From assembly GCA_035540635.1 (NCBI GenBank), contig DATLGH010000009.1:1-32154 (forward strand): DNA of 32,154 bases, read 5' to 3'. This document shows positions 1,411-32,154 of this stretch, piece by piece. This DNA is from Egibacteraceae bacterium (GTDB taxonomy: Bacteria; Actinomycetota; Nitriliruptoria; Euzebyales; Egibacteraceae). Numbering within the stretch: position 1 is the stretch's first letter; the number at the start of each line of letters is the position of its first letter. Both the position numbers and the translations under genes were made by a program. The notes under the pieces are model-generated. The model saw only the letters and a program-made list of their open reading frames with translations, ran no database searches and was not told the DNA's origin.

Positions 1411-1878
1411 GTGCGGCTCGATGACGTGTTGGAGATCATCAGCGCCCTGCAACGCGAGGGCGTGCGCTACGCCGTCTTCGGTGCGCTTGCGCTGGCGGCG
1501 CACGGGTTGGACCGGGCGACGAGAGACCTCGACCTCTTCGTCGACCCCGACGAGGACAACGTCATGCGGCTGCGCCGGGCGCTCGCCACGGTGTTCGGTG
1601 ATCCCGCCGTCGACGAGATCACGGCCGACGACCTGGCCGGCGAGTATCCCGCCATCCAGTACGGACCGCCCGACGTGGACTACACCATCGACATCGTGAG
1701 CCGCCTGGGCGAGGCGTTCGCGTTCGACGACCTCGACATCATGGAGGTGGATGTCGGGCAGGTGCGCATGAAGGTCGTGACCCCTGAGACGCTCTACCGC
1801 ATGAAGCGCGGTACCGTACGACTGCGCGACCGGGACGACGCGGAGCGCCTGCGGCAGCTGCTCGACCTGGAGGAATGA
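1411..1878 (+). CDS. nucleotidyltransferase-fold protein (AbiEii/DUF6036-like)
   Basis: A 155-residue protein of the minimal nucleotidyltransferase superfamily. Residues about 20-46 carry the hallmark block: YAVFGALALAAHG followed by TRDLDLFVDPD, supplying the G-[AG] helix and the D-x-D metal-binding pair. A later block (VTPETLYRMKRGTVRLRD) matches the C-terminal region of AbiEii-like and DUF6036 proteins. Such proteins transfer a nucleotide to RNA or protein and several are toxins of type IV-like or related modules. The GTG start has no ribosome binding site and follows a -10-like TAGCAT. The stop overlaps the next ATG (ATGA), so the two genes are translationally coupled. Family call is secure; substrate and toxin role are inference. 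Confidence 0.8.
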   Translation: MRLDDVLEIISALQREGVRYAVFGALALAAHGLDRATRDLDLFVDPDEDNVMRLRRALATVFGDPAVDEITADDLAGEYPAIQYGPPDVDYTIDIVSRLGEAFAFDDLDIMEVDVGQVRMKVVTPETLYRMKRGTVRLRDRDDAERLRQLLDLEE

Positions 1879-6526: not shown

Positions 6527-9475
6527 TTACCGTGTCGTCGCCAGCGAGACCGCGGCGTCGAGGAGGCCGAGCTCCCCGGCCCGTCGCACGGCCTGTGTCC
6601 GGGTGTGGCAGCCGAGCTTGGCGAGCAGGTTGCGCACATGCATGTCCACCGTGCGTGGGCTGAGGAACAGATCGCCGGCGATCTCGCGGTTGGTGAGCCC
6701 GGCGGCGAGCAGGCGCAAAACCTCTCGTTCCCGCGGGGTCAGCCCGGCGACGTCGGCCTGTCGGGCCGCTCGCCGGCCGAGCCGGCGCTGCACGTCCTCG
6801 CCGAGGACCTCGAGCTCCGCGACCGCGGTGGCGGCCAGCGGGCGGGCGCCGAGGGTGCGCGCGGTGTGGTAGGCGCCGACGAGCCGCTCGACCGCTTTGT
6901 CGCGGTCCCCGGCGGCGGCCAGGGCGACGCCGGCGCGAGCCTGGGTCTCGGCGGTCTCGGGTGGCAGGCTCACCGCCCGCAGCAGCTCGAGGGCGCGCTC
7001 GAACTGGTCAGCGGCGCGGCGTGCGTCGTCCTCCAGCAGGGCGTTCTCGCCCAGGGCATGCGCGAAGGCGGCGGTCGCCTCGGCGGTGCCCATGGCGGTG
7101 GCGGTGCGGGCCAGGGCGTGCGTGCAGGCGCCGAGGTCACCCTGCAGCCCGTGGCGGCCGAAGAACGACGAGGCCCAGCGCAGTGCGGCGACGGAGTAGT
7201 GCAGCTCCTCGCGGTCGAGGCAACGAGCCGTCAGCTCCCGCAGCCGTGCCGTGGCTGCGTCGACGTCACCGTCCAGTTCGGCGACCCGGGCCAGGCCCCA
7301 GGTGGTCTCGACCTCGAGCGGGAACAGCTCGTGAGCTCGTGAGAAGGCCCCCGATCGGGCGAGGTGCCGGCGTGCCTGTGCGACCGCGCCCCGGTTGGCC
7401 TGGACGAGGCCGATCTCGCCGGTGGCCACCATGCGTGCCACCTCGGGGGCGTCGTCGATGGCGAGGACCTCCTCGCCGACCTCGAGCGCGCGGTCCCACC
7501 GGCCGGTGTGGCGCAGCGTCGGGATCAGACACGCCAGGCAGACGTGCGCGTCGGCGTCGAGGCCGCGGCTGCGGCAGAACGTAACCGCGTCGGTCCAGGC
7601 GTCAAGCGCCGCCGGGTAGTCGCTGGCCTGTTCGAGCGCGATCGCATGCAGGTAGTAGACCTCGGCGGCGAGGCTCTCCAGGTCGGAGTCCAGAGCGAGA
7701 TCGAACGCCCTGGTCGTCAGCTCGACGCCGGCGGCTGCCTGGCCGAGGCTGGCACGGATGGTTCCTTCCAGGGCCATGGCGCGGACCCGCGGCCCGGTCG
7801 GTTCGGTCGTGGGGGACGAGGGTGCGTCGGGCGCCGCGGCGTCGATCTCCGCCCGCGCCTGGCGCACCAGCTGCAACGCCCCGGTGAGGTCTGCGGCGTC
7901 CCACAGGTGCGTGGCTGCGGCCAGCCGTTCGGCCGCCGCCTCGGCCAACAGCCCGGTCCGGGCGAACTCCTCGGCGGCGACGAGCCGGGCCGACAGGGCG
8001 CGGGGCCAGTCGTCGGTCAGCTCGTAGACGCCGGCCAGGCGCCGCTGCACGACGGCCAGCGCCTCGTGGTCCCCCGCCGACCGGCGAGCCGTCGCCACCT
8101 CCTCCCACGCAGCAGCGGCTTCGACGGTCTCGCCGCAGCGCTCGGCGCACTCGCCGAGCCGGTCGACCAACCGCAGGCGCGCCTCGGCGTCCTCATCCGC
8201 AGGCCACAGGGCAAGAGCCTGGTCGATCGCCTTCTTCGCGTCGCGGTAGGCGTGCACGTTGCAGGCCGCCTCGGCGGCGGCTACCAGCAGCGGCCGGGCG
8301 CGCGCCGGCTCGTGCGCCGCCTGCCAGTGAGCGGCCACGATGCCAGGAGCCGCGCCGCGCAGCTCGAGGGCGTGGGCCAGCGCAGCGTGATGCCGACGCC
8401 GGCGCGTCCAGGGGGTCGCGGCGTACAGCGCTTCGCCCAGCAGGGCGTGGCGGAAGGCGGCCTCGCCCGAGCCGCCCGCACGACCGGGAGACTCCACCAG
8501 CAGGCCGCGCTCCAGCAGCTCCTCGACGGCCTCGTCGTTGCCCGCGAGCTCGCACAGCACCTCGAGTGCGACCGGCGACCCAGCCGCAGCGGCGATCTCC
8601 GCCAGCCCCCGCGCCGGCGCCGACAACCTGACCACACGCGCCAGGACGGCGTCGCGCACCGACTCGGGAACCACGTCTACTGAGATGATCTCCTCCGCAT
8701 CACCGCCGGACTCCGCGATCGCCGCTGCGAGCTCCTCGAGGTAGAAGGGCAGACCGTGCGCGCGACGGTGCACGGTGGCCAGGACCTCCGGTGCAACGCC
8801 GTCGCCCAGCATCCGTCGCAGCAGAACAGCGCTGTCAGCCGCGTCCAACGGGTCCAGAGTGAGGTGCCGTTGCACGCCGTCGGCGGCGCGGCGCAGCACG
8901 GCCCGCAGGCTCCGCAGGGGGTGCTGACGGGGCAGCTCGTCACTGCGGTACGCCCCGATGACGAGCAAGGGGAGGCCGGGCAGCGGTGCTGCCCAGTCGG
9001 CCAGCACCGCCAGCGTGGCAGCGTCGGCCCACTGCAGGTCGTCGAGGAACACGATCGTGGGCCGCTGCTGCGCCAACCGCTCGAAGGCCCCTCGGATCGC
9101 CGGACGGATCTCCTCTGCCTCTGCCTGCGGAGCAGGCCCGAGCTCTGGCAGCACGAGGCCCAGGCTTGGCTCCAGCAGCGCCCCGTCGTCCACCCCGTCC
9201 CCGGGCGCGCTGCGCAGATGGTCGCGTAGCGCGGCCTTCAGCGGGCCGTAGGGCACCGCCCCGCCGTCGTGTGCGCCGCCCCGCAGCACTCGCACATCCG
9301 TCGATGACAGGACAGCCTCGACCAGCGCTGTCTTGCCAGCCCCCGCTTCGCCCGCGACGAGCACCAGCCCGCCCGCGGCCTCGCTCAACCGTGCGACGGT
9401 CTCCCCAAGGGTGGTCTGCTCGAGCTCCCGACCCACGAGTCGCCGGACCGCCGACATGAGCGGAGTGTAGGCCAC
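6527..9475 (-). CDS. LAL-type LuxR-family transcriptional regulator with AAA ATPase
   Basis: A 982-residue large ATP-binding LuxR regulator (MalT-like architecture). Residues 42-49 are a Walker A motif, GEAGAGKT; IVFLDDLQWAD (about 142-152) is Walker B; the centre is a long series of Ala-rich helical pairs of TPR type; and residues about 912-970 are the LuxR helix-turn-helix (LTPREREVLRLLAAGLTNREIAGDLFLSPRTVDMHVRNLLAKLG). Such proteins sense a ligand or partner through the ATPase/TPR part and activate a target promoter. The start may be Met1 (9475) or Met7 (9457). It lies downstream of a truncated response regulator on the same strand. Target genes are unknown; the OsmC operon, 136 bases downstream, is one possibility. 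Confidence 0.88.
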   Translation of the reverse strand: MAYTPLMSAVRRLVGRELEQTTLGETVARLSEAAGGLVLVAGEAGAGKTALVEAVLSSTDVRVLRGGAHDGGAVPYGPLKAALRDHLRSAPGDGVDDGALLEPSLGLVLPELGPAPQAEAEEIRPAIRGAFERLAQQRPTIVFLDDLQWADAATLAVLADWAAPLPGLPLLVIGAYRSDELPRQHPLRSLRAVLRRAADGVQRHLTLDPLDAADSAVLLRRMLGDGVAPEVLATVHRRAHGLPFYLEELAAAIAESGGDAEEIISVDVVPESVRDAVLARVVRLSAPARGLAEIAAAAGSPVALEVLCELAGNDEAVEELLERGLLVESPGRAGGSGEAAFRHALLGEALYAATPWTRRRRHHAALAHALELRGAAPGIVAAHWQAAHEPARARPLLVAAAEAACNVHAYRDAKKAIDQALALWPADEDAEARLRLVDRLGECAERCGETVEAAAAWEEVATARRSAGDHEALAVVQRRLAGVYELTDDWPRALSARLVAAEEFARTGLLAEAAAERLAAATHLWDAADLTGALQLVRQARAEIDAAAPDAPSSPTTEPTGPRVRAMALEGTIRASLGQAAAGVELTTRAFDLALDSDLESLAAEVYYLHAIALEQASDYPAALDAWTDAVTFCRSRGLDADAHVCLACLIPTLRHTGRWDRALEVGEEVLAIDDAPEVARMVATGEIGLVQANRGAVAQARRHLARSGAFSRAHELFPLEVETTWGLARVAELDGDVDAATARLRELTARCLDREELHYSVAALRWASSFFGRHGLQGDLGACTHALARTATAMGTAEATAAFAHALGENALLEDDARRAADQFERALELLRAVSLPPETAETQARAGVALAAAGDRDKAVERLVGAYHTARTLGARPLAATAVAELEVLGEDVQRRLGRRAARQADVAGLTPREREVLRLLAAGLTNREIAGDLFLSPRTVDMHVRNLLAKLGCHTRTQAVRRAGELGLLDAAVSLATTR

Positions 9476-22312: not shown

Positions 22313-22630
22313 TCAGCGCAGGTCGAAGACCGTGGCGAGGGCGAGGTCGACGCCCCACAGCTCCTCGGCGGTCACTCGCCCGACCAGGTCGCCGAGCCGA
22401 CTCGCGTCGACCGCGCCGGTCTGCTCGACCAGCACCTTGCTCGGTGAGCCGTCCACGTCGATCTCCGGTCGGAACGAGGCCCCGCGGGCCGACCTCGACG
22501 TCGGCGCGACGAGGATGGTGGACAGGGCCGCCAGCGCATCGGACTGCACGACCACGCCGTAGCGCACACCGTGCTGCTCGTGTCCGGCACCGCGACGCAG
22601 CCGCAGCCGGAACACGTCACCACGGCGCAC
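22313..22630 (-). CDS. mazF: MazF-family endoribonuclease toxin
   Basis: A 105-residue MazF: MRRGDVFRLRLRRGAGHEQHG, then RYGVVVQSDALAALSTILVAPTS, then FRPEIDVDGSPSKVLVEQTGAVDASRLGDLVGRVTAEEL, the full order of the fold. The GTG at 22630 lies inside the end of the antitoxin gene (14-base overlap); an internal GTG at 22621 is possible. It probably cleaves mRNA. A relic of its 3' part lies at 3278-3382. Confidence 0.88.
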   Translation of the reverse strand: MRRGDVFRLRLRRGAGHEQHGVRYGVVVQSDALAALSTILVAPTSRSARGASFRPEIDVDGSPSKVLVEQTGAVDASRLGDLVGRVTAEELWGVDLALATVFDLR

Positions 22631-22856
22631 GCAGGTCCTCCATCAGGTCGGCCACAGCGCTGGCCTCGGCCCGGTCACCCTCGTCAGCCGACAGCGCCGC
22701 AGCCTCGGCAGCGAGCCGCTGGCGATCACGAAGCCGAGCTGCTGCCGCACGCAGGCCAAGGCGGACCGCCTGCGAGCGCGACAGGCCGGTCGCCTCCAGC
22801 TCGGCCAGGGCACGTGCCGCCTCGGCGTCCAGCCGCACGGAGATCATCTCAGCCAC
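22617..22856 (-). CDS. ribbon-helix-helix antitoxin paired with MazF
   Basis: A 79-residue protein: VAEMISVRLDAEAARALAELEATGLSRSQAVRLGLRAAAARL is a ribbon-helix-helix, followed by an acidic helix AAALSADEGDRAEASAVADLMEDL. The GTG at 22856 follows TACACT (22868-22863) by six bases, suggesting a leaderless mRNA; ATG 22847 is an alternative. It neutralises the adjacent MazF. Confidence 0.82.
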   Translation of the reverse strand: MAEMISVRLDAEAARALAELEATGLSRSQAVRLGLRAAAARLRDRQRLAAEAAALSADEGDRAEASAVADLMEDLRAPW

Positions 22857-22862
22857 CCAGCC

Positions 22863-22868
22863 AGTGTA
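22863..22868 (-). promoter_or_regulatory. -10 element (TACACT) of the MazF pair
   Basis: TACACT on the minus strand ends six bases before the GTG at 22856, with no Shine-Dalgarno sequence, consistent with a leaderless transcript. Confidence 0.4.
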
Positions 22869-22878
22869 ACGCACTTCG

Positions 22879-23196
22879 TCATACATTCTCGGGGCCGGCC
22901 GCCGGCTGCAGCCGCAACATCCGCCCGTGGTACTCGAACTGGACCGGCACGTCAGCCTCGAGCGCGAAGTCGAAGACCGCACGCACCGCACGGCCGAGCT
23001 CATGGGATCGAAACCCGTTGACCTACACCGTCACGTCGCAGCCGCGCTGGCGGATGGCTTGGACCGTGTGCAGGTAGTCGCGGCGATCGCCGACCACCTC
23101 GACGGTCCAGCCCGCACCGACCTTGATGTTGGGTATCCCCTGCAAGATGGATGCCACCTCGTTCTTCGCTCCGCCGGTCGTTGGCTCTGTCGACAT
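22879..23196 (-). pseudogene. small gene interrupted by one in-frame TAG
   Basis: ATG 23196 has a strong GAGGAGG ribosome binding site. The first 57 codons read MSTEPTTGGAKNEVASIL, GIPNIKVGAGWTVEVVGDRRDYLHTVQAI and end CDVTV at a TAG (23025-23023). The same frame continues with clearly protein-like VNGFRSHELGRAVRAVFDF, ALEADVPVQFEYHGRMLRLQ to a TGA at 22879. Either a full 105-residue protein has been interrupted, or a 57-residue protein is made. I do not recognise the family. It ends just upstream of the MazF pair promoter. Confidence 0.45.
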
Positions 23197-24136: not shown

Positions 24137-24158
24137 ATGATGTATGACCTTACATCAT
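24137..24158. promoter_or_regulatory. perfect 8-bp inverted repeat over a -10 box (operator)
   Basis: atgatgta and tacatcat flank six bases. The consensus-like TATGAT (24136-24141) overlaps the left arm, so a bound antitoxin would block transcription of the vapBC pair. Two ggttgacc repeats at 24163-24170 and 24176-24183 follow in the leader and may be further sites. Confidence 0.6.
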
Positions 24159-24203
24159 GGTCGGTTGACCCTTGAGGTTGACCGTGAACCGAGAGGAGTG
24201 GCC

Positions 24204-24470
24204 GTGAAGATGCGTCGGACACAAGTCCTCTTCGCGGACGAGCAGTACCGACGCCTCAAGGAGGCGAGCGAGCAGACCGGACGCTCGATCGGTGCGATCG
24301 TACGGGCGGCGGTCGACGAGCACCTCGCGGACCGTTCGCTCGACTCCTTCCTGGCCGCACTCGATGACAGCTTCGGCGCCTGGGACGAGCAGGACTTCGA
24401 CGGGCGTGCCTGGGTCGACCGCGCTCGCGGGGGCCTGGACCAGCCGATCGGTGCGATGGCGTGGGAGTGA
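24204..24470 (+). CDS. vapB: ribbon-helix-helix antitoxin (VapB-type)
   Basis: An 88-residue protein: MKMRRTQVLFADEQYRRLKEASEQTGRSIGAIVRAAVDEHLAD is a ribbon-helix-helix, and the tail SFLAALDDSFGAWDEQDFDGRAWVDRAR binds the toxin. GTG 24204 is preferred because AGGAG lies five bases upstream; ATG 24210 is the alternative. Its tail resembles that of the truncated antitoxin at 13696. Confidence 0.87.
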   Translation: MKMRRTQVLFADEQYRRLKEASEQTGRSIGAIVRAAVDEHLADRSLDSFLAALDDSFGAWDEQDFDGRAWVDRARGGLDQPIGAMAWE

Positions 24471-24844
24471 TCGTTGCCGACTCGTCGGTGCTCGTCGACC
24501 ACCTTCGCGGCAAGGAGGCCAGCCGACAGGCCCTCCGCTCAGCGCGGACCGGAGGGGAGCGGGTGCAGGCCTCGGTCCTCAGCCGCACCGAACTGCTGGT
24601 CGGGATGCGGGCACACCAGAAGCGGCTCACGCAGCGCCTCGTTGACCAGATCGAGTGGATCCCCGTGGACGAATGGATCGCTGACCGTGCCGGTGAGCTG
24701 GGCCGCCGCTACCGCGCCTCCCATCCCGGCATCGGCGTAATCGACCTCGTCATCGCCGCCACCGTCGAGCGCGTGCGAGGCCAGCTGTGGACCAGCAACG
24801 TGAAGCACTTTCCGATGTTCGACGACCTCGCACCACCCTACTGA
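24461..24844 (+). CDS. vapC: PIN-domain toxin (VapC)
   Basis: A 127-residue PIN protein: VIVADSSVLVDHL (Asp7), LSRTELLVGMRA with the conserved Glu, GVIDLVIAATVERV with the third acidic site and LWTSNVKHFPMFDDL. It overlaps the antitoxin by ten bases; GTG 24467 may be the true start. Paralogous to the vapC at 13319-13699, roughly 60 percent identical by eye. Confidence 0.9.
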   Translation: MGVIVADSSVLVDHLRGKEASRQALRSARTGGERVQASVLSRTELLVGMRAHQKRLTQRLVDQIEWIPVDEWIADRAGELGRRYRASHPGIGVIDLVIAATVERVRGQLWTSNVKHFPMFDDLAPPY

Positions 24845-25180: not shown

Positions 25181-28100
25181 CTATTTCCAGTGGTTGTGGA
25201 TGTAGCGATGAGCTGCATCGACTGGTAATGGCTGGGTTGCATTACCCATTCGTGCGTAGAACGTGGCGCCTTGTTTGTCGGCCACGTACACCGGCTCTGG
25301 TGACCTCTTGACGTCGATCTGGCAGACGTCGCGGCCCTCGAGGGACGTGATGGCGACCCGTATGAACGCCAACGGCGGCAGACCCAGCGCGCTACTGAGC
25401 ACTTGCGTGAGGTGCAGCTCGAAGCCGTCCCGAGTCCCCTTCTTGCCCAGTGTCCGATAGTCCGGCTCCAGCCCGACAAGGGATCCGTCGTCGGCCACGC
25501 CGATCAGAAGCGTTCCTCCCTCGGCGTTCAAGAAGCCCGCCACCGTCTTGGCCACGACCTTCTCCAGCTCCTTCATGACCGAGCCGTCGGTCATGTTGGC
25601 TCTCAGGCTCGACTTGAACTCAAGGTGGGCGCTCTCCCCCCGATCGATGAGAGCGCGCAGATCATCGGCGGCATCGGCGTGAACCGCACCGACCCGCGCG
25701 GTGCCGGAGAGCTGCAGCGTGCCGTCGACTGCCCGGAGCAGGTCCCCTTGCCTGCAGAGAGTGGCGCTGACCTCCTCGATCGCCTGGCGGATCTTGGCGC
25801 CGGTCCGCTTGAAACCGAACAGCCGCGCGATGCTGTTCACCAGCTCCTCTTCGCTCATCGCGCGGGCGTCCCGCACAAGTGCGCGAACGGCCAGCGCGAG
25901 TTCCTCTGGCGTGATGTGGTTGATGTCGCGGAAGGAGTCGCCGTCAGCGGCGGAGGGCACACGCACGACCGCGGGACGGTCTCCGAGCAGCGTGTCGCCG
26001 GAGCGCGTGAGCTCGCCGCGACGCTCCAGGGTGGCCACGGCCCTCTCGACCGCTTGGCGCACCCGCTTCGTTGCGTTGACCCCGTACTGCCACGCAATCC
26101 GCTTGATCACCAGCTCTATGCTCACGGGAGACTCGCCTGCAACCATCTGAGAGACGGCGTCCATTACACCAGACATCGCCTCCAGTCCGGCCGGGTGCAC
26201 CGAGTTGTCCACCATCGGCCACGTCGGCTCGTACGGAACGGCCCAGGCCGGTGGGGCGTCCAGATCCACCTCGACCTCGTGCAGTTCCACACGCTCAGCC
26301 CGTACGCCCGCCGGCCGCGTCGCCCGTGCTTCGCCTCGCGTGGCGGACTGGAGTGCCTGCCTCAACCGCTGTTCGCTGCCCGCCCTCTCGAGGTACCAGG
26401 CCGGTCCCCACACGCGGTGAAGCCGCCACCCCAGTCGCCCAAGCACCTCTTGGCGGAGACGATCCCGGTCGCGAGCCACCGGCGAAGAGGCGTAGGAGGC
26501 CCCGTCTAGCTCGATGCCCAAAAGATAGGCCCCCGGTTGCTTGGGGTCACGGACGGCGAGGTCGAGCCGGTAGGACGACATGCCAACCCCAAGGTCCACC
26601 TCGTGGCCCCACTTGCGCAGCACCTCGGCTACAACTCCGGCAAGCGCCTCGTCGGGCGCAAGGACGCCATGCGTCCTCGTCTCCGCCGCACCGACCTCGC
26701 GGGCATAGCGCATGTATTCCAACAAGCGCACCAACCCCACGGCCTTCGCCTTGCCGGCGAGGGCCTCCGGCTGGAAGGAGGAGAACACCTCCACCTTCCG
26801 GCGCGCCCGTGTCACCGCAACGTTCAGCCTACGTTCGCCCCCCTTTCGGTTCAGGGGCCCGAAGTTCGCCGAGAAGCTGCCGTCGGCCTGTGGGCCATAG
26901 CCCACGCTGAACAGGATCACGTCCCGTTCGTCGCCTTGGACGTTCTCCAGGGCTTTGACGAAGAACGCGTCCTTGATATCCAGGGCGAAGAAGCGGTCCA
27001 GGTCCGGACGGTCCAGCCGCAGCCGCTCCACCTCGTTCTCTACCGCCTCCGCCTGTGCCTGGCTGAAGGTCACCACGCCGAGCGACCGATCCGGCGTCAC
27101 AGAGGCGCAGTCGATGACGCGCCGCGCGACCGCCTGCGCCTCCCGGCGATTCGTCCTGGAGGTCCCGCCTTCGTACACGCCGTCGACGATCTGCAGCGAC
27201 ACCCCGAGGTGCGGCCCCGCCGGGTCGGCTCCGGGGAACGTGACGAGCTGGCCGTCGTAGAACGCTCCGTTGCTGAAATTGATCAGCGTTTCGTGCTGAC
27301 TTCGGTAGTGCCACTGCAACGGGACGGAGTGCAACGCGGCCGTCCCCTTGCACAGGCCGAGTACCGATTCGAAGTCATCGGGCTGCTCCTCGTCGTAGCT
27401 GTCGCTCTCGTCGATCGCAGTCCGGTCGAAGAAGTTCGTGGGCGGGAGCTGCTTGTCATCGCCCGCGACGATCAGCTGTCCGCCGCGATAGACACAGTTG
27501 ATCGCGTCCGCGGGGGTCACCTGGGACGCCTCGTCGAAGATGACGACATCGAACGCGAAGCTCGGCGGCAGGAACTCGCTCACCGACAGCGGACTCATGA
27601 GGAAACAGGGTTTCAACGCACGAGTGACCTCGGCTGTCTTCTCCAGCAGCAGCCGTACCGGCATGTGGCGTGACCGCTTCTGGGCCTCGCGTTCGATGAT
27701 CTTCGCCTGGCCGACGCTGGTCACCGGGCGGCGTCCCGCACATGCGGCCGCGACTCGCTGAGCAGCATCGGTGAGGAGCTCGTGATCCAATCGCCGGAAC
27801 TCCTCGAGGTCCGCAGTGAGATCATCGGCTCGGACCGACGCAAGTGCGGGCTCCGACGAGGAAACGGCGTTGTACCAGGCTGTCCATAACGCCCGTTCGA
27901 GCACATCTGGCAGCTGCTCTGCACGGGTTCGGTCCCCGGTGACGTAGTCGAGGCTGGGCTTCCACCCCTCCGTCCTAAGCTCGGCCATGAGCTCCGTGTG
28001 CGCCCGCCACACGTCGATCTGGTGGATGCGGTCCGCCAGGTTTCCGAGTGTGCCGCACGCATCGCCGAGGTCGCCCTCCAGCTCCTCACGCAGCTCCTCG

Positions 28101-31100
28101 GCACGGCTGGGGTCGAATCGGTCGAGAAGATTGGTCTGCAGCTTGCGCGCCTGCGCGCAGGCATGGGCCAGCGGCTCCGGGTCTGCCGGAGGATGCCGGT
28201 CGTGGAGCTGGTCGGCGGCTGCCCTAGTCAGCGGACCGCCGTGAACCTCCTGCAGCTCACCCGCCCAGCGAAGACCTCGCCCGACCAGCTCGATGTCGGT
28301 GTCGTGACCGGCATAGAAGTAGCCGAAGCGCCGACGGTCGCGAGACTCCTCCTCCCGTAGCCGGCGGGCTCGGTCGTCGACGTCGGCGCGGCGGCGGAGC
28401 TCATTGCCCAGGACGGACAGGTCGGCGGGCTGCAGGCGTCGGGTCTCGACTTCCGTAGCCAGCTCGAGGAGTGCCGCGGCTGTCTTGGCGGCCTCCTCAG
28501 CCTGATGGATAAGCGCTGTGAGAGGCATGGCAGGATCGACCTGTTCGCCGAACAGCACGCGGCCCGGCCCGGATCGCCAGTCCTCGATCCGCTGAACGGT
28601 ACGCTGCGCGCGGTCGGCCAGACTCGGATCCTGCGGGGCCTCACCGCACAGCTGGGCTGCCACACCAGAAGCGTCGTAGTCCTGACGAAGCCGCTCTGCG
28701 GCCTCACGAAGGACGCTCAAAGCTCGTCCAGCGGCACCGACGTCTGTTTCTCGCTCCTGCGCAAAACTGCCGAGCACTTCCTTGGACCGAGCGTAAGCAG
28801 CGTCGAGCGTCCTGCCCGCCTCCTGCAGCTCCAATGCCTCCCGCAGGTGGCTGCGGACATCCTTTGTGGCCTTGCCGATCCGGGCCACCGATGCCACGGC
28901 GCGTTTGTCCTCCCGATACGACGTCGACAGCTTGCGCAACCCTTTGTGCCGTTGCTCGAACCTGACGACAAGGCTCGCGAGGTCGAGCTCCTCGATCTCG
29001 GGCGTGAAAACCTCCTCAAGGGCGGAGCGGCGCTTCTGATAGTGATCCACGAGTGGTCCGAGGACGGTCAACGCCGCCTCGACGCGGCTGATGATCGACG
29101 GTGAGCTCCACTGCGTCTCGGGTCGCACGTGAGCGTCCGCATGGGAGGCCACCAGCGCCAAGTCGAGACATTCAGTGATGGTGCGGTCCCGGTCGGGTGC
29201 TCGCAGAGCGGCCGCCAGGTCCCGGGCCTCGGCCTGCAGCTGGGTGGCGAACTCCACCGTCTCGCGTGCCGCCACGACCTGACGCGCCAGTTCCGGGACG
29301 GTCGGGCCGACTGGCTCGAGCAACAGGCCGCCGAGGGCCTCGGACAGCTCGTCCCAGCGCTTCGCCAATCGGGAATCGAGCGCATTCCAGTCCTGCCCGT
29401 ACGCCGCCTCCAGTGCGTCGACGTCGCGCCGTTGGTCCTGCGCCTCCGCGTCGAGCACCGCCAGACGCGCCAGCGACTCAGCGAGGTTGCCTGACGTCCA
29501 CCACGACTTGTCGGTGGGGGGCTGCCGCAAGACCTCCTGCAGGACAGCTACCAGCCACTCGGCCTGTAGGAGATCCTGTGCGACCCGCAGCGCGGTTTCG
29601 TCGGCGAGCTGGTCGCTGAGGTCGGCGACCTGCTGGAGCGTCCTGTTGAGCTGGTCGACGACCTGCTCCAAGTCGGGTCGTGTGCGTGGGCTCGTATGCT
29701 CGGCCCGCAATCCCAACCAGACGAAGTCAGGGCGGTCGGCGACGGGTGCCCAGACCCTGGACAGTCGTTGGAACCGGCCTATCAGCTCCGCCACCTCTCC
29801 GGCGCTCAAGCCGGCTCCGATCGCTGTGGGCGTCGGGGCAGCAGGCACGTCAGCGAGCTGCGCGAGGCGGCCCACGACCTCCTCGATGCTTTGCCCCAGG
29901 GGGTCACGCCGGCGGTTGAGGGCATCGGCATAGCTGCTCAGCCGGGCACGAAGCTTCTCCGCACGGGCCAGGTCGGCTTCAGTCAGACGTGGCCGCCCCA
30001 CGGGCTTGCGCCTGAGTGCCTCGCCGAGGCGGCCGGCCACCTCTCGGCGGCCGACTTTCTGGCCGTGCAGTTCCAACAGGAACGGGCTCAGGCCTCGATC
30101 ACCCAGCCGGGCTGCGACCACCTGCAAGGCAGCGAGCTTCTCGGACACGAACAGCACGGACTTCCCGTCGGCGATGAGCTCGGCGATGATGTTCGCGATG
30201 GTCTGGCTTTTGCCCGTGCCGGGCGGGCCGTCCATGACGAAGTTCACTCCGCCCCTTGCCGCTGCGATCGCACGCCGTTGACTTCCGTCCGCATCGAGGA
30301 TCAGCCGGGCGCGCTCGGGCGGGGCGACGGCATCCAGCTCCTCCTCGGCCGGAGGGGACACGTCCGCCGGAACGACATCGTCCGGGTCGGCGAGGAAGCG
30401 CACCAGCGGATGGCCGCACACCACCCGGAGGTTGTCTGTGAGGTCCTTGAACATCGCCTCCTTGTGGAAGGTCGCTCGCTTCAGCACCACGTTCGGCTCC
30501 ACGCGCCAGCCCCGGTGACGGACCGCCTCGGCGACGCCATCCCATAACGCGCCGAGGTCGACGTCCTGGGTCTGGGCAAGGTCGAACTCGGGAAGGGTCA
30601 GGTCGAACTCCTGCTCCAGGAGCACACGGAGCGAGAGGTTCAGCACCGGGTCGTTCTCGAGCCGAGCGAGCCTGAATGGATCCCGTGGCGAGCTGCGGAC
30701 CAGGTTGACGGGGATGAATAGCAGCGGCGAACGGTTGTCTTCGGTTTCGTCCTCCCGTCGCCAGTGCAGCATCCCGAAGCACAGGTAGAGGCTTTCGAGC
30801 CCTCGGTCGACGAGGTCCAGGTTCGCCAGCCGGGCGAGGTTCTTGAGCGCTGCCTCGACCTCGGACCGGGTGGTGCGCTCTGTGACGAGCTCCCCTGCGC
30901 CGGCGTGCGCGACGCTGTCCTGGATCGTCCACGGGGGGGCTCCGGGGGTCGCCGGAGGCGGGCTGAAGAACCCCCACTCCTGGTTGCGTTGGAGTCGCTC
31001 GAGCGCTGCGACAGGCGCCGGCGCCAGGATCTGCAGGGTGCCGCGCTTGATGGGCTTGTAGAACAACGACGTGTTGCGCCGGGAGAGGTCGACGAGTTCG

Positions 31101-31147
31101 TTTGCCCAGGTCTTGACCCGTACCGCTATCCGATCGCTCGATGCCAT
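25181..31147 (-). CDS. COG1112-type SF1 helicase with DUF4011, Vsr/MTES_1575-like nuclease, DUF3320-like and AlbA_2 domains
   Basis: A 1988-residue protein. N-terminus VKTWANELVDLSRRNTSLFYKP is the DUF4011 signature. Walker A is GPPGTGKS near residue 307; motif II is IFDEASQ near 1205; motif III GDDKQLPPT; motif IV region WHYRSQHETLINFSN; motif V ENVQGDERDVILFS; motif VI NVAVTRARRK near 1441, together an SF1 (UPF1-like) helicase. A long coiled-coil/helical insertion lies between motifs I and II. Residues about 1510-1590 hold GIELDGASYASSPVARDRDRLRQEVL and GWRLHRVWGPAWY, a Vsr/MTES_1575 restriction-nuclease-like domain. A DUF3320-like segment and winged-helix-like repeats follow. Near 1838, HLEFKSSLRAN and GGTLLIGVADDG mark an AlbA_2 (Schlafen-type) domain. 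ATG 31147 is preceded by GGAGGGGG. Helicase-nuclease proteins of this type are known in phage defence. The AlbA_2 tail is unusual. Probably cotranscribed with the DUF262-HNH gene upstream. Confidence 0.9.
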   Translation of the reverse strand: MASSDRIAVRVKTWANELVDLSRRNTSLFYKPIKRGTLQILAPAPVAALERLQRNQEWGFFSPPPATPGAPPWTIQDSVAHAGAGELVTERTTRSEVEAALKNLARLANLDLVDRGLESLYLCFGMLHWRREDETEDNRSPLLFIPVNLVRSSPRDPFRLARLENDPVLNLSLRVLLEQEFDLTLPEFDLAQTQDVDLGALWDGVAEAVRHRGWRVEPNVVLKRATFHKEAMFKDLTDNLRVVCGHPLVRFLADPDDVVPADVSPPAEEELDAVAPPERARLILDADGSQRRAIAAARGGVNFVMDGPPGTGKSQTIANIIAELIADGKSVLFVSEKLAALQVVAARLGDRGLSPFLLELHGQKVGRREVAGRLGEALRRKPVGRPRLTEADLARAEKLRARLSSYADALNRRRDPLGQSIEEVVGRLAQLADVPAAPTPTAIGAGLSAGEVAELIGRFQRLSRVWAPVADRPDFVWLGLRAEHTSPRTRPDLEQVVDQLNRTLQQVADLSDQLADETALRVAQDLLQAEWLVAVLQEVLRQPPTDKSWWTSGNLAESLARLAVLDAEAQDQRRDVDALEAAYGQDWNALDSRLAKRWDELSEALGGLLLEPVGPTVPELARQVVAARETVEFATQLQAEARDLAAALRAPDRDRTITECLDLALVASHADAHVRPETQWSSPSIISRVEAALTVLGPLVDHYQKRRSALEEVFTPEIEELDLASLVVRFEQRHKGLRKLSTSYREDKRAVASVARIGKATKDVRSHLREALELQEAGRTLDAAYARSKEVLGSFAQERETDVGAAGRALSVLREAAERLRQDYDASGVAAQLCGEAPQDPSLADRAQRTVQRIEDWRSGPGRVLFGEQVDPAMPLTALIHQAEEAAKTAAALLELATEVETRRLQPADLSVLGNELRRRADVDDRARRLREEESRDRRRFGYFYAGHDTDIELVGRGLRWAGELQEVHGGPLTRAAADQLHDRHPPADPEPLAHACAQARKLQTNLLDRFDPSRAEELREELEGDLGDACGTLGNLADRIHQIDVWRAHTELMAELRTEGWKPSLDYVTGDRTRAEQLPDVLERALWTAWYNAVSSSEPALASVRADDLTADLEEFRRLDHELLTDAAQRVAAACAGRRPVTSVGQAKIIEREAQKRSRHMPVRLLLEKTAEVTRALKPCFLMSPLSVSEFLPPSFAFDVVIFDEASQVTPADAINCVYRGGQLIVAGDDKQLPPTNFFDRTAIDESDSYDEEQPDDFESVLGLCKGTAALHSVPLQWHYRSQHETLINFSNGAFYDGQLVTFPGADPAGPHLGVSLQIVDGVYEGGTSRTNRREAQAVARRVIDCASVTPDRSLGVVTFSQAQAEAVENEVERLRLDRPDLDRFFALDIKDAFFVKALENVQGDERDVILFSVGYGPQADGSFSANFGPLNRKGGERRLNVAVTRARRKVEVFSSFQPEALAGKAKAVGLVRLLEYMRYAREVGAAETRTHGVLAPDEALAGVVAEVLRKWGHEVDLGVGMSSYRLDLAVRDPKQPGAYLLGIELDGASYASSPVARDRDRLRQEVLGRLGWRLHRVWGPAWYLERAGSEQRLRQALQSATRGEARATRPAGVRAERVELHEVEVDLDAPPAWAVPYEPTWPMVDNSVHPAGLEAMSGVMDAVSQMVAGESPVSIELVIKRIAWQYGVNATKRVRQAVERAVATLERRGELTRSGDTLLGDRPAVVRVPSAADGDSFRDINHITPEELALAVRALVRDARAMSEEELVNSIARLFGFKRTGAKIRQAIEEVSATLCRQGDLLRAVDGTLQLSGTARVGAVHADAADDLRALIDRGESAHLEFKSSLRANMTDGSVMKELEKVVAKTVAGFLNAEGGTLLIGVADDGSLVGLEPDYRTLGKKGTRDGFELHLTQVLSSALGLPPLAFIRVAITSLEGRDVCQIDVKRSPEPVYVADKQGATFYARMGNATQPLPVDAAHRYIHNHWK

Positions 31148-31208
31148 CCCGTCATCCCCCTCCAGATGCGGACGCCCCGCCTAGGGTTTCCCGTCTAAGT
31201 CGGAGCAA

Positions 31209-32154
31209 TTACTTCGCACCCCACTTCTTGTTACAGGACGCGTGGGCAAGCGCCGCATTGGCGATCACCGTCTTGCCTCCCCTGACATGCGGTTCGACGT
31301 GGTCGATGTGGAGATCCTCCCATCGCTTGATCCTTGGGCTCAGGCAGTCGGCGAAGTGGCAGGTCGGATCCTTTTCGGCGTGCCACAGGATGCGCCGCTG
31401 CGTGGCGTTGAATGCGCGCTGCGGGTCCTTGTGGTCGAAGACGCTCTCGATGACTTCCCGCAGGATCTTCTCTCGCTTCTGTCGCTGCTTCTGGCTATCG
31501 GTGCCTTCTCTCACTGTCGCGAGGTACTGTACCAAGGGCTTCTCCGCCCTGGTCGCTGCCTTCATCGTCTTCTGTTTCTCGCTCACTCGGTCCACAGCTG
31601 CGCCGAACTCGGTCAGTAGCGCGCCGGCGACCTTATTGCGTTCGCTACCGTGAGCGGTCACTGTTCGACCTTCATCCCACAGCCGGTGCAGGAGCAAGAC
31701 TAGCGTGTAGAAGTCCGCGCGCCTGTGAAAGCGTGTCGTCTTGAGCCCGGGCAGTACCTTCTTAAGGACGTTCAGGGCGCGGTTGACGGCAACGCTCGCT
31801 TGGTCCAGCGAGTCCTTCTCCAGGCCCTGCCCAGCGAGGACCTTGTCCAAAGGCCCCTTCTTATTGAGCGGCCTGCCCTCATGGACCGAGTAGAAGCGAT
31901 TCCTCCAGTCACTCGACAAGTCCCACCAGGTCCACCAGTCCGCAGGTCTCCATCGGCAAGGGCTGTTCGGAGGTTTAGCACCCCTTGGTCTGTCAGAGGC
32001 CCTTCGCCCAGCCACCACAGGATCGTCTCGATTCGCTGCTTGCCGTCGATGACAGACCACTGCTCGTGCTGAACGGCAAGGCTCACTCTGGGTCCTAACC
32101 TCGATGTTTCGCGCGGCAGGCTGATGGGCGCGTGAATGTCGTCGGTCCGGCGTG
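31209..32154 (-). CDS. DUF262 (GmrSD-like) plus HNH nuclease protein, 5' end off the window, one frameshift
   Basis: From the right edge, one frame reads APISLPRETSRLGPRVSLAV, then QWSVIDGKQRIETILWWLGEG, with the D-G-x-Q-R motif of DUF262 (ParB-like nucleotide-binding). Near 31945 the coding frame shifts: LADGDL continues in another frame as ADWWTWWDLSSDWRNRFYSVHEG. The second half is helical and ends with a HNH nuclease: CHFADC, LHIDHVEPHVRGG (His-Asp-His), ANAALAHASCNKKW with the Asn/His and terminal Cys. DUF262-HNH proteins include type IV restriction enzymes that cut modified phage DNA. The stop is 61 bases before the helicase start, same strand. If the shift is genuine, the enzyme is inactive; it may be a sequence error. 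Confidence 0.72.
   Translation of the reverse strand, partial: TPDRRHSRAHQPAARNIEVRTQSEPCRSARAVVCHRRQAANRDDPVVAGRRASDRPRGAKPPNSPCRWRPADWWTWWDLSSDWRNRFYSVHEGRPLNKKGPLDKVLAGQGLEKDSLDQASVAVNRALNVLKKVLPGLKTTRFHRRADFYTLVLLLHRLWDEGRTVTAHGSERNKVAGALLTEFGAAVDRVSEKQKTMKAATRAEKPLVQYLATVREGTDSQKQRQKREKILREVIESVFDHKDPQRAFNATQRRILWHAEKDPTCHFADCLSPRIKRWEDLHIDHVEPHVRGGKTVIANAALAHASCNKKWGAK

Follow-up and report, generated by a model that had tools for sequence, protein, structure and literature searches.

Two adjoining minus-strand genes lie at one end of the window, the whole 32,154-nucleotide stretch of DNA analysed here, and they raise the question of whether a DUF262-HNH gene and a very large DUF4011 helicase-nuclease gene make up one restriction system, as the original prediction had it, or whether the larger protein acts alone, and what the AlbA_2 domain at its C-terminus might do. 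On balance, we favour the answer that the 1988-residue protein works alone against phages (or plasmids), as a helicase-nuclease of the ProA/Hhe/PDC-S37 kind to which a Schlafen-type RNase tail has been added as a second effector. The features concerned are these:

25181-31147, minus strand: DUF4011 helicase-nuclease with AlbA_2 tail, 1988 aa (open reading frame; Pfam; PADLOC PDC-S37; NCBIfam ProA and Hhe)
30620-31096, minus strand: DUF4011 domain, aa 18-176 (Pfam PF13195, 5.6e-26)
30101-30286, minus strand: N-terminal half of the helicase with Walker A GPPGTGKS, aa 288-349 (Pfam AAA_19/AAA_30)
26783-27556, minus strand: C-terminal half of the helicase with motifs II-VI, aa 1198-1455 (Pfam AAA_11/AAA_12, SF1 helicase)
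26351-26632, minus strand: MTES_1575 restriction-nuclease domain, aa 1506-1599 (Pfam PF18741, 3.4e-28)
25784-25855, minus strand: DUF3320, aa 1765-1788 (Pfam PF11784, 1.1e-6)
25184-25687, minus strand: AlbA_2/Schlafen-type tail, a predicted RNase, aa 1821-1988 (Pfam PF04326; AlphaFold2; Foldseek)
25613-25636, minus strand: ExxxxExK motif, E1838-E1843-K1845 (conserved among 18 tails; the SLFN14 equivalents are catalytic)
31209-32152, minus strand: what is left of a DUF262-HNH gene that is truncated at the contig end and changes frame near 31,940 (DGKQR; HNH; codon-phase GC shift)

The 1988-residue protein and its relatives

The large open reading frame begins with an ATG, and Pfam confirmed what had been read from the bare sequence, namely a minus-strand protein of 1988 residues with SF1 motifs, an MTES_1575-like nuclease and an AlbA_2 end; over the C-terminal region, for which a profile search had been proposed, it returned the MTES_1575 domain listed above and an SLFN_AlbA_2 match at residues 1838-1974 (PF04326, 5.9e-16). 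A long insert parts the two helicase halves, and the C-terminal half matched the SMUBP-2 and SEN1 helicases. The motifs GPPGTGKS, FDEASQ, GDDKQLPPT, QGDERD and VAVTRAR are intact, as are the acidic residues of the nuclease (D1529, E1546 and D1548), and in an alignment with five relatives, 31-41% identical to the protein, Walker A, Walker B, GDDKQLPPT, QGDERD, TRA and the three acidic residues were invariant or nearly so.

The domain order found by Pfam (DUF4011, SF1 helicase, nuclease, DUF3320) was ProA-like. Against the ProA model (NF058533) the protein scored 1156.8 bits, the best stretch covering aa 909-1781 and reaching the model end, with a curated cut-off of 1500, and against Hhe (NF042953, PADLOC) it scored 721.3 bits, with a cut-off of 2000. 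PDC-S37 of PADLOC, a phage-defence candidate only and a model with no given curated cut-off, yielded 1240 bits with the best stretch extending to profile position 1540 of 1550, and the tail-less relatives scored alike (1222-1330 bits). Leaving the tail aside, these profile matches indicate that the protein belongs with the DUF4011 helicase-nucleases of the ProA/Hhe/PDC-S37 kind, although it lies below both curated cut-offs, and together with the domain matches they lend support to the defence relevance that had been suggested for it. No description of ProA or PDC-S37 was found in a search of a limited open-access literature set.

Distribution of the family was patchy, with matches at E<=1e-100 in 7 of 296 genomes of the phylum, and the protein was not found in a genome of the same genus; some relatives are plasmid-borne, and the fusion of DUF4011 to AlbA_2 was seen in one draft assembly only. 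Short-peptide patterns drawn from the full protein had no match in genome and viral contigs, but an alignment query did find relatives. A phage origin was rejected, there being just two matches among 50,697 phage records.

The window holds other genes of note. An RHH-type antitoxin and a PemK/MazF-like toxin form a pair at 22313-23003 on the minus strand, while at 24144-24844 on the plus strand an RHH antitoxin overlaps a PIN-domain toxin (VapBC type) and adjoins the 3' end of the large gene; toxin-antitoxin genes in such a position would be usual for variable, defence-rich regions. Further away are a nucleotidyltransferase related to AbiEii toxins (1411-1878, plus strand) and, at 6527-9475, a 982-residue AAA_16 ATPase with a LuxR-type HTH, a large transcription regulator.

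A Schlafen-type tail and its hosts

The tail carries the sequence E-S-A-H-L-E-F-K, and in an alignment of 18 tails both glutamates were invariant and the lysine nearly so. Residues E1838, E1843 and K1845 supply the ExxxxExK motif of Schlafen-type RNase domains as defined in PMC12215978, where the corresponding E206, E211 and K213 of SLFN14 were required for RNA cleavage, with a contribution from D248/D249; D1886-D1887 of the tail align at the place of the latter pair. A profile of the tails matched PDB chains of SLFN14, 12, 11, Schlafen 8/13 and 5 (best 8.5e-9, the rest weaker), and also a chain named CbCash. The AlphaFold2 model of the tail had a pLDDT of 96.1, and its Foldseek matches comprised 3lmm, SLFN13, SLFN14 and SAMD9, including the 'tRNase domain' 9o0d, with a probability of 1.00 to SLFN13, SLFN14 and SAMD9 and TM scores, taken by query length, of about 0.4-0.64. 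Among solved bacterial folds 3lmm was the closest, and its title assigns no RNase function. Model and alignment support a Schlafen fold and catalytic motif in the tail, bearing out an early hint that AlbA_2 here might be Schlafen-like, and on fold and motif we predict that the tail is a Schlafen-type RNase. Mammalian SLFN RNases use two lobes; the tail has one and might need dimerisation, a point against the RNase prediction, although a PDB title suggests that one domain of SAMD9 suffices.

Among the DUF4011 relatives the tail is an exception: 88 were scored, and none of the 73 that could be read to the DUF3320 end had one, most tail-less relatives ending within some 30 residues after DUF3320. 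On a Bacteroidaceae contig (L034) a separate frame near base 600, upstream of the DUF4011 gene, gave a weak AlbA_2 match (2.3e-8). A search with the tail and DUF3320 region covered 246 genomes of the phylum and gave 22 matches, of which one (G074) was due solely to the DUF3320 region, and a tail search of 48 genomes from other loci, mostly of other phyla, gave a single match, in Methanosarcina.

Hosts of the tail, assigned by Pfam for a sample and by reading the sequence for others, were of several unrelated kinds. Homologous tails, 33-48% identical to that of the window, occupied the C-terminus of type I HsdR (loci L155, L157-L161, L163-L165, L117 and L126), of BREX BrxL (L150, L152, L153, L113 and L124) and of GmrSD-type DUF262 proteins (L154, L166 and L109), and occurred as well on a kinase-like protein and on two proteins that have membrane segments. 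Plasmids carried tails on DUF262 proteins of Sinorhizobium and two haloarchaea, on an N6-methylase adjoining type I genes and, away from defence genes, on small membrane proteins. Because tails are found on such unrelated hosts while 73 DUF4011 relatives reach the DUF3320 end tail-less, the tail appears to be a domain added to complete enzymes.

Individual loci illustrate the arrangements. HsdR proteins ending in an ExxxxExK AlbA_2 tail lie beside HsdM/HsdS-like genes at L155:4529-8038, L158:6522-10382 and others, and at L164:2-3700 the tailed HsdR is followed directly by a same-strand DUF262 gene with DGxQR. BrxL with a C-terminal AlbA_2 tail is seen at L150:5817-8273 and L152:6939-8969, and GmrSD-type DUF262 proteins with C-terminal AlbA_2 are on haloarchaeal and Sinorhizobium plasmids at L174:1848-3974, L172:1854-3959 and L170:1842-3977.

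In a tree of 32 tails, that of the window formed its own lineage with no supported neighbour. Host labels changed two times for HsdR, four for GmrSD and four for BrxL, the GmrSD and BrxL tails being scattered, and the well-supported branches, taken by themselves, are compatible with one origin each for the three groups. AlbA_2 tails on HsdR, BrxL or GmrSD were not found described in the limited open-access set searched, and may be described elsewhere. We read the tail as a portable module of Schlafen type, presumably an RNase, that was added to DNA-targeting enzymes with a presumed role in defence.

The DUF262-HNH neighbour and competing readings

The upstream gene proved to be less than had been supposed. 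The expected DGxQR and C-terminal HNH are present on the minus strand, with 61 bases between the stop of this gene and the large open reading frame, but DGKQR (32033-32047) and HNH (31218-31349) lie in different reading frames, and as the window is the whole contig, which ends at 32154, the 5' end of the gene is missing. The HNH half occupies one frame from 31212 to about 31940, and third-position GC switches phase within about 31,855-31,975, the pattern that a single frameshifted gene would give, whether the shift is real or an assembly error at the contig edge. Pfam recognised the HNH (PF01844, 1.9e-9, 37.9 bits; HNH_5 also matched), with no match to GmrSD_C (DUF1524), and the GmrSD_N/DUF262 match of this truncated and frameshifted fragment reached 16.7 bits against a gathering cut-off of 33.2. 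No relatives of the HNH protein were found in plasmids, viral contigs and 65 other genomes of the class, and 296 genomes of the phylum gave weak matches with no close homologue among them.

That the two genes form one two-gene restriction system is, in our estimation, the least probable of the readings considered here. They share a strand and lie close together, and in other genomes the same AlbA_2 tail is found on GmrSD-type proteins. Against this, 90 loci of DUF4011 relatives were scanned, 10 of them from the phylum and 80, with flanks of up to 10 kb, drawn widely from bacteria and archaea; in 83 loci the sequence upstream exceeded 1.2 kb. None had a DUF262 gene directly upstream, and three (L040, L041 and L079) had a DUF262-like gene at some point in the flanks fetched. 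The original prediction had itself named rare adjacency as the outcome that would speak against a system, and no recurrent DUF262-DUF4011 adjacency was found. With the local gene cut at the contig end and changing frame, no intact partner is present in the window, and no close homologue of the HNH protein turned up in 66 genomes of the class or 296 of the phylum. Since adjacency and an intact partner both fail, the two-gene system is unsupported and the adjoining DUF262-HNH gene is not part of any conserved system with the DUF4011 gene; the relatives, having no fixed partner gene, fit a single-gene system instead.

A single-gene protein might still serve cellular DNA or RNA metabolism in place of defence, and the resemblance of its helicase core to SMUBP-2 and SEN1, as well as the DUF4011 gene that is a core gene flanking a defence hotspot of P. 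aeruginosa (PMC10250203), would suit such a role. We consider it improbable, as the distribution is patchy, the best family matches are to defence models, relatives are plasmid-borne and toxin-antitoxin genes lie nearby. The tail poses a closer contest. It could be a nucleic-acid-binding or dimerisation module with no RNase activity that helps to hold the DNA target, leaving the protein to act like ProA or Hhe. AlbA_2 has been described as DNA-binding in prokaryotic Argonaute architectures (PMC6299218), the title of 3lmm is silent on RNase function and the hosts are mostly DNA enzymes; in addition, the presence of the module on membrane-anchored and kinase-like proteins with no evident defence role counts against the reading that we favour. 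Yet nearly all of the 18 tails, divergent as they are, retain the two glutamates and the lysine that SLFN14 needs for RNA cleavage, which argues against binding alone, since mere binding would not need both glutamates, and we regard the binding reading as possible but rather unlikely.

Proposed mechanism and comparison with known systems

In the reading that we favour, a stand-alone helicase-nuclease with an RNase tail, the split SF1 motor would engage and track on foreign or aberrant DNA, and the MTES_1575 nuclease, to judge from its family, would cut the DNA so engaged. The AlbA_2 module would be a metal-dependent RNase of Schlafen type, switched on by engagement or blockage of the motor or by failure of the DNA attack, and once activated it would cleave tRNA or rRNA and bring translation to a stop as a back-up abortive response. 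We infer the RNase activity of the tail, its trigger and the role of the protein in defence. A precedent for this second-effector logic is available in BREX loci, where Schlafen RNases were proposed as back-up suicidal effectors (PMC12839542); at the BrxL C-terminus the passages concerned mention an HKD DNase and no Schlafen domain.

Should the tail be an active RNase, a single protein would couple DNA attack to translation shut-off, and the recurrence of the tail on HsdR, BrxL and GmrSD would imply hidden RNA-cutting back-ups in several classical DNA-restriction systems. Bacterial restriction enzymes would then be tied to the animal Schlafen/SAMD9 antiviral tRNases via a common, swappable domain. 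More tentatively, a single transferable Schlafen-type tRNase module on the C-termini of the unrelated HsdR, BrxL, GmrSD, N6-methylase and DUF4011 enzymes may serve all of them as a second effector for abortive infection, set off when foreign DNA is engaged by the host enzyme or escapes its attack; in bacteria this would correspond to translation shut-off by Schlafen and SAMD9.

Set beside known systems, the window protein shares with ProA its order of four domains, but the ProA model stops before the tail and the score remains below 1500. PDC-S37 likewise stops at the DUF3320 part and lacks the AlbA_2 domain that the window protein adds, and Hhe has the DUF4011, helicase and nuclease parts in common with it, although the score is far below 2000 and AlbA_2 goes unmatched. 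With GmrSD, the upstream gene shares DGKQR and an HNH, but it is incomplete and its HNH is PF01844 instead of GmrSD_C; it is intact GmrSD-type proteins elsewhere that bear an AlbA_2 tail like that of the large protein, a domain absent from the other extra domains listed in a 2015 GmrSD survey. Finally, SLFN13, SLFN14 and the tRNase domain of SAMD9 have fold and ExxxxExK in common with the tail, whereas identity over the fold is 14-21%, and the domain of the window is single-lobed and fused to a bacterial helicase-nuclease.
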